Source of the DNA: an uncultured bacterium | GTDB taxonomy: Bacteria; Cyanobacteriota; Vampirovibrionia; Gastranaerophilales; Gastranaerophilaceae | DNA length: 64,000 nt | Direction: 5' to 3' | Assembly (NCBI GenBank): GCA_902765215.1 | Contig: CACWZA010000005.1 | Span: 62,001 to 126,000, forward strand | Shown here: positions 5,444-56,356 of the stretch, in pieces | How positions within the stretch are numbered: position 1 is the stretch's first letter | Layout: every line of letters starts with the position of its first letter | Notes under the pieces: model-generated | Seen by the model: only the letters and a program-made list of their open reading frames with translations | Databases searched by the model: none | Told to the model about the DNA's origin: nothing | Program-made: the position numbers and the translations under genes

Positions 5444-5464
5444 ATTTATATTCGGCGGTAACGG
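5441..5464. repeat. Direct repeat copy of the tRNA-Glu 3' end (distal copy)
   Basis: These 24 bp match 5571-5594 with one mismatch. Bases 5451-5464 (TTCGGCGGTAACGG) equal the reverse complement of the tRNA-Glu 3' end (acceptor strand plus start of the T stem) and its immediate flank. The copy bounds the structured element at 5465-5570 on the side away from the tRNA. Confidence 0.85.
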
Positions 5465-5570
5465 ACTCTGCCGAACAAAACAATTAAGTATTGTTTTGTG
5501 AGAGGTAAGAACCCGCGAGATTTTTTGCAAAAAAATCGAGGGGTTCAATTCCCGAGCAACCCCTCAATGA
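5465..5570. other. Structured element inserted between tRNA-Glu 3'-end repeats
   Basis: This is a short element of about 106 bp. It starts with ACTCTGCCGAA, then a perfect 9-bp hairpin CAAAACAAT-TAAGT-ATTGTTTTG (5476-5498), then TGAGAGGTAAGAACCC. It continues through an A/T hairpin and an 8-bp hairpin GAGGGGTT/AACCCCTC. The head, hairpin loop and tail match the element beside tRNA-Arg (45867-45934), while the stem differs with compensation. No reading frame is apparent. It may be a small RNA, a mobile-element relic or an attachment-site structure; the transcribed strand is unknown. Confidence 0.65.
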
Positions 5571-5582
5571 TTTAATTATATT

Positions 5583-5654
5583 CGGCGGTAACGGGAATTG
5601 AACCCGTGTTTGCAGAATGAGAATCTGCCGTCCTGACCACTAGACGATACCGCT
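5583..5654 (-). tRNA. tRNA-Glu (CTC anticodon)
   Basis: The 72-nt cloverleaf reads on the minus strand. The D arm is GTCT/GGAC. The anticodon stem GCAGA/TCTGC carries loop TTCTCAT with anticodon CTC. The T arm is ACGGG-TTCAATT-CCCGT and the acceptor strand is TACCGCC with discriminator G. CCA is not encoded. Position 1 is A and position 72 is C, so the terminal pair is an A-C mismatch where G-C would be expected. The other six acceptor pairs are good. Confidence 0.9.
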
Positions 5655-5748
5655 GTGTGCCATCATTATACACCAAAAACGAAACTGCATAAATATTTTA
5701 TATCTATGCAGTAAGTTACGTTGAGTGTTAAATCTTTGTTTTAAATGT

Positions 5749-45672: not shown

Positions 45673-45697
45673 TTTTTATTAAAAAACACGCCCAGAG
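45673..45697. repeat. Direct repeat of the tRNA-Arg 3' end (distal copy)
   Basis: 25 bp identical to 45963-45987. The last 11 (CACGCCCAGAG) are the reverse complement of the tRNA-Arg 3' end; the rest is the flank. It bounds the structured element at 45698-45855. Confidence 0.88.
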
Positions 45698-45855
45698 AAG
45701 GACTCCGTTGGCGGACAGCAAAAGGTGACTAAATGTCACGTTTTGCGTAGATATATGCTAAATCTTGCGGGAAAGAGTAAGCCAATGGAGGGGAGAACCC
45801 TTGGGTGAGAATCCTGAAAATAATAAAAGAGGCATCTCGTGATGCCTCTTTTATT
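45698..45855. other. Structured element A beside tRNA-Arg
   Basis: No reading frame. It starts GGACTC. The outer stem is CTCCGTTGGC/GCCAATGGAG and the inner hairpin is GCAAAAGGTGAC-TAAAT-GTCACGTTTTGC with one mismatch. The tail GGAGAACCCTTGGGTGAGAATCC is related to that of element B. It ends with its own terminator hairpin AAAAGAGGCATC-TCGT-GATGCCTCTTTT (45825-45852). It looks like a complete small RNA unit on the plus strand, with anti-tRNA sequence at its 5' end, but transcription is unproven. Confidence 0.6.
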
Positions 45856-45866
45856 CACGCCCAGAG
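45856..45866. repeat. Direct repeat of the tRNA-Arg 3' end (middle copy)
   Basis: CACGCCCAGAG, identical to the 3' end of tRNA-Arg in reverse complement, preceded by TTTTATT as in the other copies but without the A6 run. Confidence 0.85.
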
Positions 45867-45935
45867 ACTCTGCCGAAGAAAAAGATTGAGTATCTTTTTC
45901 TGAGAGGTAGAACCCCCGAGGGGGTGAGAATCCAA
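45867..45935. other. Structured element B beside tRNA-Arg
   Basis: Begins ACTCTGCCGAA, then the perfect 9-bp hairpin GAAAAAGAT-TGAGT-ATCTTTTTC (45878-45900), then TGAGAGGTAGAACCC and a CCCCCGAGGGGG hairpin before GTGAGAATCC. Head, loop and tail match the element beside tRNA-Glu, with compensatory changes in the stem. It is followed by a terminator hairpin at 45939-45968. Confidence 0.65.
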
Positions 45936-45968: not shown

Positions 45969-45976
45969 TTAAAAAA

Positions 45977-46050
45977 CACGCCCAGAGGGATTCGAACCCC
46001 CGACCTCTTGGTTCGTAGCCAAACGCTCTATCCAGCTGGGCTATGGGCGC
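45977..46050 (-). tRNA. tRNA-Arg (ACG anticodon)
   Basis: A 74-nt cloverleaf. The acceptor GCGCCCA/TGGGCGT has a G-U first pair and discriminator G. The anticodon stem TTTGG/CCAAG carries loop CTACGAA with anticodon ACG (read as ICG). The T arm is CGGGG-GTTCGAATCC. CCA is not encoded. The 3' terminal 11 bases are duplicated twice on the downstream side. Confidence 0.95.
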
Positions 46051-46121
46051 GTATTTCTTTTTGTATAACTATGTTATCAATAACATAATGTTTTTTCAAT
46101 ACCCGATTTGTAAATTAGGTA

Positions 46122-55501: not shown

Positions 55502-56356
55502 TTACTTGTTTACCTTAAAATATATTTCTTTTAGTCTTTTCTTGCTGACGTGCGTGTATAACTGGGTTGTAGCGACATCGCTGTGCCCTAACAGCTCCTG
55601 AACCACCCTTAAATCTGCCCCGTTTTCGAGTAAATGTGTCGCAAAAGTGTGTCTGAGAGTGTGTGGAGAGATTTCTTTGTGTAGTGATTCCCCCAGTTTA
55701 TGTATCAGTCTGTATACATCCTGACGTGTCATTAGTCTTCCGGTGTCTGTTATAAGAAGTCTTTGGGTATCCAGTCCGTATTTATTAATTAATATATCTC
55801 TTTCACTCAGGTAATCGGTTATTGATTTAAGTGCGTATTCCCCAAACGGAACAAGCCTTTCCTTTGATCCTTTCCCAAAGCAGATAATGTTTTTTGACTT
55901 CATGTTTATATTATTAATATTAAGGCTGCATAATTCGGATACCCTGAGTCCGCAACTGTACAGTAATTCAACGATTACTTTTTCAGTCGGGTTAAGGTTC
56001 TGTCTTAAGAGGTTATTCATTTCGTTCATTGATAAAACCTTTGGCAGGTGTTTTGGTAATTTTGCGGGTTCAATTGATGAAAGCGGGTTTGATGTTAAAA
56101 GCTCGTTTGCACATGCCCATCTGAAAAATGATTTTAAGGCGGATATTTTCCTCGATATGCTTGAAGGGGCAATACCGTTTTCTCTTAAGTCCATTATATA
56201 TGAGCTTATATGAAGCCTTGTTATGTTGGTGATTTCGCTTTCCCCGCAGAAGTCTATAAAGTATGTAATATCCCTGCGATAGGCTTCTGTAGTGTTGTTT
56301 GACAGCCCTTTTTCTATTTCAATATAATCTATGAAATCAGATAGTAATGCGTACAT
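55502..56356 (-). CDS. xerD: XerC/XerD-type tyrosine recombinase
   Basis: 284 residues. The SAM-like N-terminal domain (DYIEIEKGLSNNTTEAYRRDI) is followed by the catalytic domain with the R-H-R-H-Y set: SCGLRVSELC, SPHTLRHTFATHLLENGADLR, LLGHSDVATTQLYTHV. All five residues are intact. The sequence fits chromosome-dimer resolution recombinases; XerD rather than XerC is a guess. It could in principle act on other sites, but there is no element next to it. It is divergent from murC. Confidence 0.9.
   Translation of the reverse strand: MYALLSDFIDYIEIEKGLSNNTTEAYRRDITYFIDFCGESEITNITRLHISSYIMDLRENGIAPSSISRKISALKSFFRWACANELLTSNPLSSIEPAKLPKHLPKVLSMNEMNNLLRQNLNPTEKVIVELLYSCGLRVSELCSLNINNINMKSKNIICFGKGSKERLVPFGEYALKSITDYLSERDILINKYGLDTQRLLITDTGRLMTRQDVYRLIHKLGESLHKEISPHTLRHTFATHLLENGADLRVVQELLGHSDVATTQLYTHVSKKRLKEIYFKVNK

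Follow-up and report, generated by a model that had tools for sequence, protein, structure and literature searches.

Elements with a common core lie beside two different tRNA genes, tRNA-Arg and tRNA-Glu, within the 64,000-nucleotide stretch of DNA analysed here (the window), and a third element, larger and of related design, is also found at tRNA-Arg. This raises the question of what the core is and how it came to reside at different tRNA genes. The initial annotation had suggested an undescribed RNA or mobile-element family that captures or targets tRNA 3' ends.

Architecture of the elements in the window

The tRNA-Arg unit (element B) begins on the + strand with T1, a copy of the antisense tRNA-Arg 3' end (CACGCCCAGAG, positions 45856..45866) that matches the corresponding stretch of the intact gene at every position. 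T1 is followed by the small core S (+ strand, 45867..45907), a 41-nt sequence composed of ACTCTGCCGA, a 10-bp stem with the loop TGAGT, and GAGAGG. Alignment to the intact tRNA-Arg indicates that the tRNA copy then resumes as T3 (GAACCCCCGA, 45910..45919, + strand), and that GGATTC of the tRNA is absent between T1 and T3. The next segment, GGGGGTGAGAATCC (45920..45933, + strand), is an imperfect reverse complement (12/14) of the intact target GGATTCGAACCCCC and, according to its sequence and fold, forms the hairpin P3 with T3. The intact tRNA-Arg(acg), detected by ARAGORN and Rfam, lies on the - strand at 45976..46051.

The same order of T1, 41-nt core, T3, hairpin, reverse complement of the intact tRNA and intact tRNA is observed at tRNA-Glu. 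Here T1 is a copy of the antisense tRNA-Glu 3' end plus two flanking bases (ATTCGGCGGTAACGG, 5450..5464, + strand), the small core (5465..5505, + strand) has the loop TAAGT, and T3 corresponds to GAACCC (5509..5514, + strand), the tRNA bases GAATT being absent. The segment GGGTTCAATTCCCG (5541..5554, + strand) is an exact reverse complement (14/14) of the intact target CGGGAATTGAACCC across the insertion point, within a 16-nt match that spans the junction with no more than one mismatch, and the intact tRNA-Glu(ctc) is predicted on the - strand at 5582..5655.

Element A was proposed to be a larger relative, and this was borne out. On the + strand, a T1 copy of the tRNA-Arg 3' end (45687..45697, from sequence and tRNA alignment) precedes the big core B (45698..45791; AAGGACTCCGTTGGC ... 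GCCAATGGAGG, with the inner hairpin GTGACTAAATGTCAC), followed by T3, a hairpin and a reverse-complement tail (GAACCCTTGGGTGAGAATCC, 45795..45814). The design is that of the small-core units, with a 94-nt core AAGGACTCC...GGAGG that has its own family of relatives in 15 of 58 genomes. The window also contains a phage-integrase-family gene of XerC/D-like size (55538-56026, - strand), located away from the elements.

The core common to tRNA-Arg and tRNA-Glu (general loop T[AG]AGT) is real and belongs to a large interspersed family of gut Gastranaerophilales, of which 252 copies were catalogued. Its exact ends are ACTCTG...GAGAGG. The sequence ACTCTGCCGAA has two exact matches in the window, at 5465 and 45867, and the 51-nt blocks of the two loci are 80% identical (family D8). 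The bases after GAGAGG are variable (TAG, GTT, TTGG, AAG). The hairpin had been described as 9 bp long; it is present, with a stem of 10 bp, since each copy gains one A-T pair. Direct comparison of the stems GAAAAAGAT/ATCTTTTTC and CAAAACAAT/ATTGTTTTG confirmed that three pairs are changed on both sides, and the stem was found to covary strongly across 65 distinct 41-nt cores, in agreement with the selected hairpin that had been proposed. In these cores, standard pairs occupy 93.4% of the stem cells, vs 74.8% (maximum 77.8%) in controls with the 3' letters re-dealt and 36-58% when the strands were slid. Three Watson-Crick types each are observed at pairs 11-35, 12-34 and 17-29, and the core ends are near-invariant while the stem varies with compensation. 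Folding against shuffled sequences gave z = -5.3 for element A, -3.1 for element B and -3.7 for the Glu element. At the foot of the core, CTC-TGCC-GA opposite GA-GAG would form tandem G.A appositions resembling a kink-turn.

It is important to mention that compensatory stem changes, which characterise structured RNAs, are expected equally of a DNA hairpin. The covariation fits RNA and single-stranded DNA equally well and is therefore no proof of RNA. Of the suggested RNA or mobile-element family, what is supported is that the family is real, that it is apparently undescribed and that its hairpin is under selection.

Distribution of the core and its link to tRNA and tmRNA genes

A query with the whole core gave 16 matches in the genome of the window and matches in 27 of 58 relatives, which excludes chance. 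A strict, exact core pattern had matches in 112 genomes out of 386 drawn from across the phylum, and these 112 belong without exception to the window's own family and one neighbouring family; in this sample the pattern was absent from other families, other classes and the photosynthetic cyanobacteria, and a reversed-pattern control gave 0 matches. The number of copies per genome ranges from 0 to 27 and is uneven even inside one genus (0 to 23 in genus g7). At least 114 stretches match among 84,980 species genomes; among the matches listed, most informative titles denote Gastranaerophilales/Melainabacteria MAGs, and a few carry a Firmicutes label. A phage- or plasmid-borne element would be expected on viral contigs, but neither the small-core nor the big-core pattern matched any of 2.9 million of them. 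Only tRNA and RNase P scored above the Rfam gathering threshold, and a permissive Rfam scan of the array loci gave weak, sub-threshold matches only. The open-access full texts searched contained no account of Melainabacteria/Gastranaerophilales repeats, tRNA-end repeats or nested hairpins of this kind, an earlier description elsewhere being possible, and the core family and its landing rule are apparently undescribed. Assemblies often break at core copies (L024-L028, L048 and several contig ends), so that draft genomes probably understate the number of copies.

In an unselected sample of 104 resolvable copies, 78 have a tRNA within 600 bp, vs a rough expectation of about 3% from tRNA density. 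Of these 78 copies, 74 point toward the tRNA, 61 being located upstream of its 5' end on the same strand and 13 downstream of its 3' end on the opposite strand. Over all loci, 156 copies are oriented toward the tRNA and 9 away from it, i.e. the core reads from the terminus of the RNA gene inward. At least 12 tRNA isotypes are involved, and copies are also found at the tmRNA 3' end in three genomes (L033, L090, L164). The expectation that the adjoining sequence matches the local tRNA held, as T1 and T3 are copied from tRNA ends of many isotypes. The link to tRNA genes is strong but not exclusive. The remaining 26 of the 104 copies, about a quarter, have no tRNA within 600 bp, and such tRNA-free copies also occupy the loops of unrelated palindromic repeats; the expectation that matches always lie beside tRNA 3'-end copies, and with it an exclusive tRNA link, therefore fails. 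The idea of a family capturing or targeting tRNA 3' ends is likewise retained only in part: the tRNA-end link is strong, but small copies are more frequent at 5' ends (113) than at 3' ends (27), and the core replaces a stretch headed by G-N-A inside the end copy.

The arrays at tRNA genes hold independent insertion events, judging from the entry points and core types. Within the tRNA-Pro array of the genome that contains the window, tRNA position 7 is the entry point of three units and position 12 that of one more; the cores at one tRNA-Lys follow the order small, big, small; and different core types are found in a single array (L093). Additionally, a leader, TTGAAAATTAAATA, recurs upstream of many tRNAs, at 0-20 nt from the 5' end of the mature tRNA, and is duplicated with the units (e.g. 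L054, L103, L182, L210). This leader is possibly a processing or antitermination signal.

Target sites and palindromic hosts

The motif G-N-A heads the replaced stretch at all 32 of the collapsed tRNA-end sites, whereas across these tRNA ends as a whole it occurs at 11% of positions. Three exceptions in the raw data can apparently be put down to a mutation in T1 or to a change in the tRNA. The replaced stretch comprises 3-6 nt depending on the alignment, most commonly 5, with TA kept after the core, and this stretch of the target is lost and not duplicated. The big core B of element A follows the same G-N-A rule.

Homologous empty and filled sites, as expected of a mobile hairpin, were identified in dispersed repeats. 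In the G012 genome, the empty site TTTTGCG/GAAGT/GACCCC corresponds to the filled site TTTTGCG/core+TA/GACCCC, and, at a second site, CAC/GGAGT/GCGAG corresponds to CAC/core+TA/GCGAG. In G420, 21 empty repeats were found by the pattern CATCCTGAGC-N(2-9)-CGAAGGATC, mostly with GCAG, GGAG or GAAG between CATCCTGAGCC and GCGAAGGATC, and three filled copies have the core between CATCCTGAGCC and GCGAAGGATC. When empty, the G420 repeat folds as ATCCT-GA-GCC-(GCA)-GGC-GA-AGGAT, in which GCA is exactly a triloop, and it is thus this triloop that the core replaces. The idea of a C(GNA)G DNA triloop as the universal target fits several hosts (G420, G012 site 2) but not all tRNA sites, and we consider it a tendency only. 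Some filled copies in the G012 family inherited one insertion as the host repeat itself spread. The dispersed repeat TGTCTGAGGCGGCC...GTTGACAATATGAAAT, with 42 matches each in G012 and G334 (L341-L370), carries several nested hairpin insertions with empty and filled siblings. Regarding the tRNA-Glu/nifJ locus of the window, synteny is kept only in G005; this genome lacks the element, and its flanks have diverged too far to define an exact empty site.

The left and right flanks of a unit pair better with each other than with the flanks of mismatched units (p about 3e-6 at tRNAs and 4e-4 elsewhere). A junction-spanning reverse complement of at least 9 nt is present in 19% of the tRNA-linked units vs 3.4% of controls (5.6 times) and reaches 17 nt at one tRNA-Lys. 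These two observations suggest that the host is often either a hairpin derived from the tRNA end or a REP-like hairpin that was already in place. A clear reverse complement of the target survives in only about one fifth of the tRNA-linked units, and some hosts, such as G012 site 1, fold weakly as hairpins.

End copies are detectable at about half of the listed tRNAs in the window's genome, and further insert families are found inside them (3'-end loci L241, L243, L245-L247, L251, L275, L276, L278). Two of these families start with GTCTTG and end with CGCT; their entry point is ATT^CGAAC in the T-loop sequence, where no bases are lost, and they correspond to GTCTTGGATTTGC...GCAAATCCGCT and GTCTTGACCTGTTCGCG...CACAGGTCGCT at tRNA 3' ends of this genome. 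The third family, ...CTCGCGTTAAACGG...CTCTGCTCGGCTTG..., is a long palindrome. One of these inserts has a small core nested within it (L245), and a GTCTTG...CGC insert is also found in the G012 repeat, at ACT^TGTTGCC.

Explanations for the core and its place among small palindromes

The comparisons demonstrate that the core has repeatedly replaced, with exact ends and one strand polarity, a stretch headed by G-N-A in hairpin contexts. The hosts are hairpins or palindromes, namely apical loops of dispersed palindromic repeats, and incomplete copies of the ends of tRNA or tmRNA genes that often carry their own reverse complement. We therefore favour, with a probability of roughly 0.6, the interpretation that the core is a non-coding, non-autonomous mobile hairpin, MITE-like or REP-like, that would substitute for part of another hairpin; all the evidence for mobility is comparative and comes from draft MAGs.

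Several alternatives were weighed against this interpretation. The strong stem covariation and conserved loop, the compensated P1 and P3 helices, and the probable location of the upstream copies within a transcribed leader would all suit a functional three-way-junction RNA (P1 formed by the tRNA end, P2 by the core with its kink-turn-like loop, and P3) in pre-tRNA leaders or antisense at tRNA 3' ends. However, the 3'-end copies are antisense and lie beyond the terminator, those at 5' ends are sense, and about 25% of copies lie far from any tRNA; owing to these mixed strands and positions and to the tRNA-free copies, no single RNA role fits. The patchy occurrence, both from one tRNA gene to another and among the species of a single genus, and the lack of any matching Rfam family, also speak against such a predicted RNA, which we consider unlikely. 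Slightly less likely still is recombination alone, in which homeologous exchange between tRNA-end copies would proceed via A-box and B-box sequences without a dedicated enzyme. Many hosts indeed share GGC..GGTAGCGC or GATTC..GAACC, and arrays grow and shrink, but identical core ends and the G-N-A rule are also found, without flank homology, both in unrelated repeats and at the unusual tRNA positions 6, 7, 8, 21, 26, 36 and 44.

Movement in trans of a REP-type element by a RAYT/TnpA-REP (Y1 HUH) transposase would agree with the small hairpin, the single-strand polarity and a loop replacement in the spirit of Y1 chemistry, and RAYTs do occur in the clade. Nevertheless, no Y1_Tnp match was found in the five copy-richest genomes tested (G078, G129, G334, G259, G134), and the clade RAYT genes are flanked by a GTAG-type REP and not by the core, which makes this explanation improbable. 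Y1_Tnp is present in 12 of 27 core-positive vs 9 of 31 core-negative relatives, and none of the RAYTs checked has the core at its flanks, G012 having a single core in the vicinity; the RAYT was rejected as the driver, there being no consistent link to the core. A reverse transcriptase was also rejected (9 of 27 core-positive vs 11 of 31 core-negative genomes), and the genes of neither enzyme follow core copy number. Integrative cassette arrays, in which att-like tRNA-end repeats would result from a site-specific recombinase and each unit would be a cassette, are in our opinion very improbable. The unit does consist of an insert plus a direct repeat of the tRNA end, and tandem arrays adjoin the intact tRNA, but the four phage-integrase matches of the genome are unconnected with the arrays and none accounts for them, the repeated end differs per tRNA while the core is common to all, and tRNA-free copies occur.

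Two kinds of genes observed in the clade are recorded here. RAYT-like Y1 transposases are encoded at L226 (1973-2521), L219, L236 and L238, and several are flanked by their own GTAG-type REP (e.g. GTAGGTTGGGCATACCTGCCCAAC). A 290 aa reverse transcriptase with YMDD is encoded at L281 (2049-2921, G000:C1) near tRNA-Asp, and likewise at G005:C71; it is retron-like by size only. That tRNA-Asp carries B-type elements in both genomes.

For the mobile hairpin, we propose that the substrate would be a single-stranded DNA hairpin, on the lagging strand or in an extruded cruciform. A putative structure-specific, strand-transferring nuclease may recognise the asymmetric, kink-turn-like internal loop of the core and swap the core in for G-N-A at the hairpin loop. 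The tRNA genes would be hot because they form hairpins and their ends repeatedly duplicate. Only insertions in a spare tRNA-end copy would survive, and slippage between the copies could then generate tandem arrays. Either tRNA-end duplicates may be common and would alone tolerate an insert, or the insertion itself may trigger the duplication; a duplication that leaves the tRNA intact goes beyond simple insertion. A broader version, which we regard as possible but tentative, is that several hairpin families of one clade share a loop-for-hairpin substitution system, in which a hairpin with a kink-turn-like foot would replace the G-N-A-headed stretch. Such a system would nest elements and grow arrays at tRNA and tmRNA ends, and its enzyme would be host-encoded and distinct from both RAYT and reverse transcriptase.

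Tandem units with a copied tRNA 3' end beside an intact tRNA are known from the tyrT/rtT repeats of E. coli. These occupy one locus only and, to our knowledge, have no hairpin core common to different tRNAs. The core resembles REPs (GTAG and CGTC REPs, BIMEs, REPINs) in being a short interspersed bacterial hairpin of high copy number and single-strand polarity, and several of its hosts resemble CGTC/TGTC-tagged REPs (TGTCATTCTGAGC..GAAGAATC). It carries no GTAG or CGTC at the hairpin foot, its ends being ACTCTGCCGA and GAGAGG, and, unlike REPs, it is hosted by other REP-like hairpins and by copies of tRNA ends, takes the place of a stretch headed by G-N-A and has no tie to a RAYT. As in IS200/IS605-type MITEs, the core is small, non-coding and hairpin-ended, with strand-specific insertion without target duplication; it differs from them in lacking a conserved left-flank tetranucleotide, in the loss of target bases, and in having no link to Y1 in core-rich genomes. 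Mitochondrial mobile hairpins (yeast GC clusters, double-hairpin elements and sponge RHEs) are non-coding insertions of tens of bases that merge and shuffle (PMC4478555, PMC2800124). The core is similarly a small non-coding hairpin insertion that nests, but it resides in bacterial chromosomes and has no evident sequence relation to them, and it replaces its target, whereas yeast GC clusters putatively duplicate an AG target. Failing the REP tests of tag and RAYT and the GC-cluster test of target duplication, it is placed in neither group, and stands apart among small mobile palindromes.

CGTC REPs are also found without a known transposase (PMC3733652), and the origin and spread of such transposase-less bacterial palindromic repeats is a long-standing question. 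The many nested empty/filled comparisons of this clade, the sharp target rule and the compact 41-nt donor make the mechanism testable. In these bacteria, the ends of tRNA and tmRNA genes are hotspots where end copies and structured inserts accumulate, and such pile-ups can mislead the annotation of tRNAs, small RNAs and attachment sites and can break assemblies.
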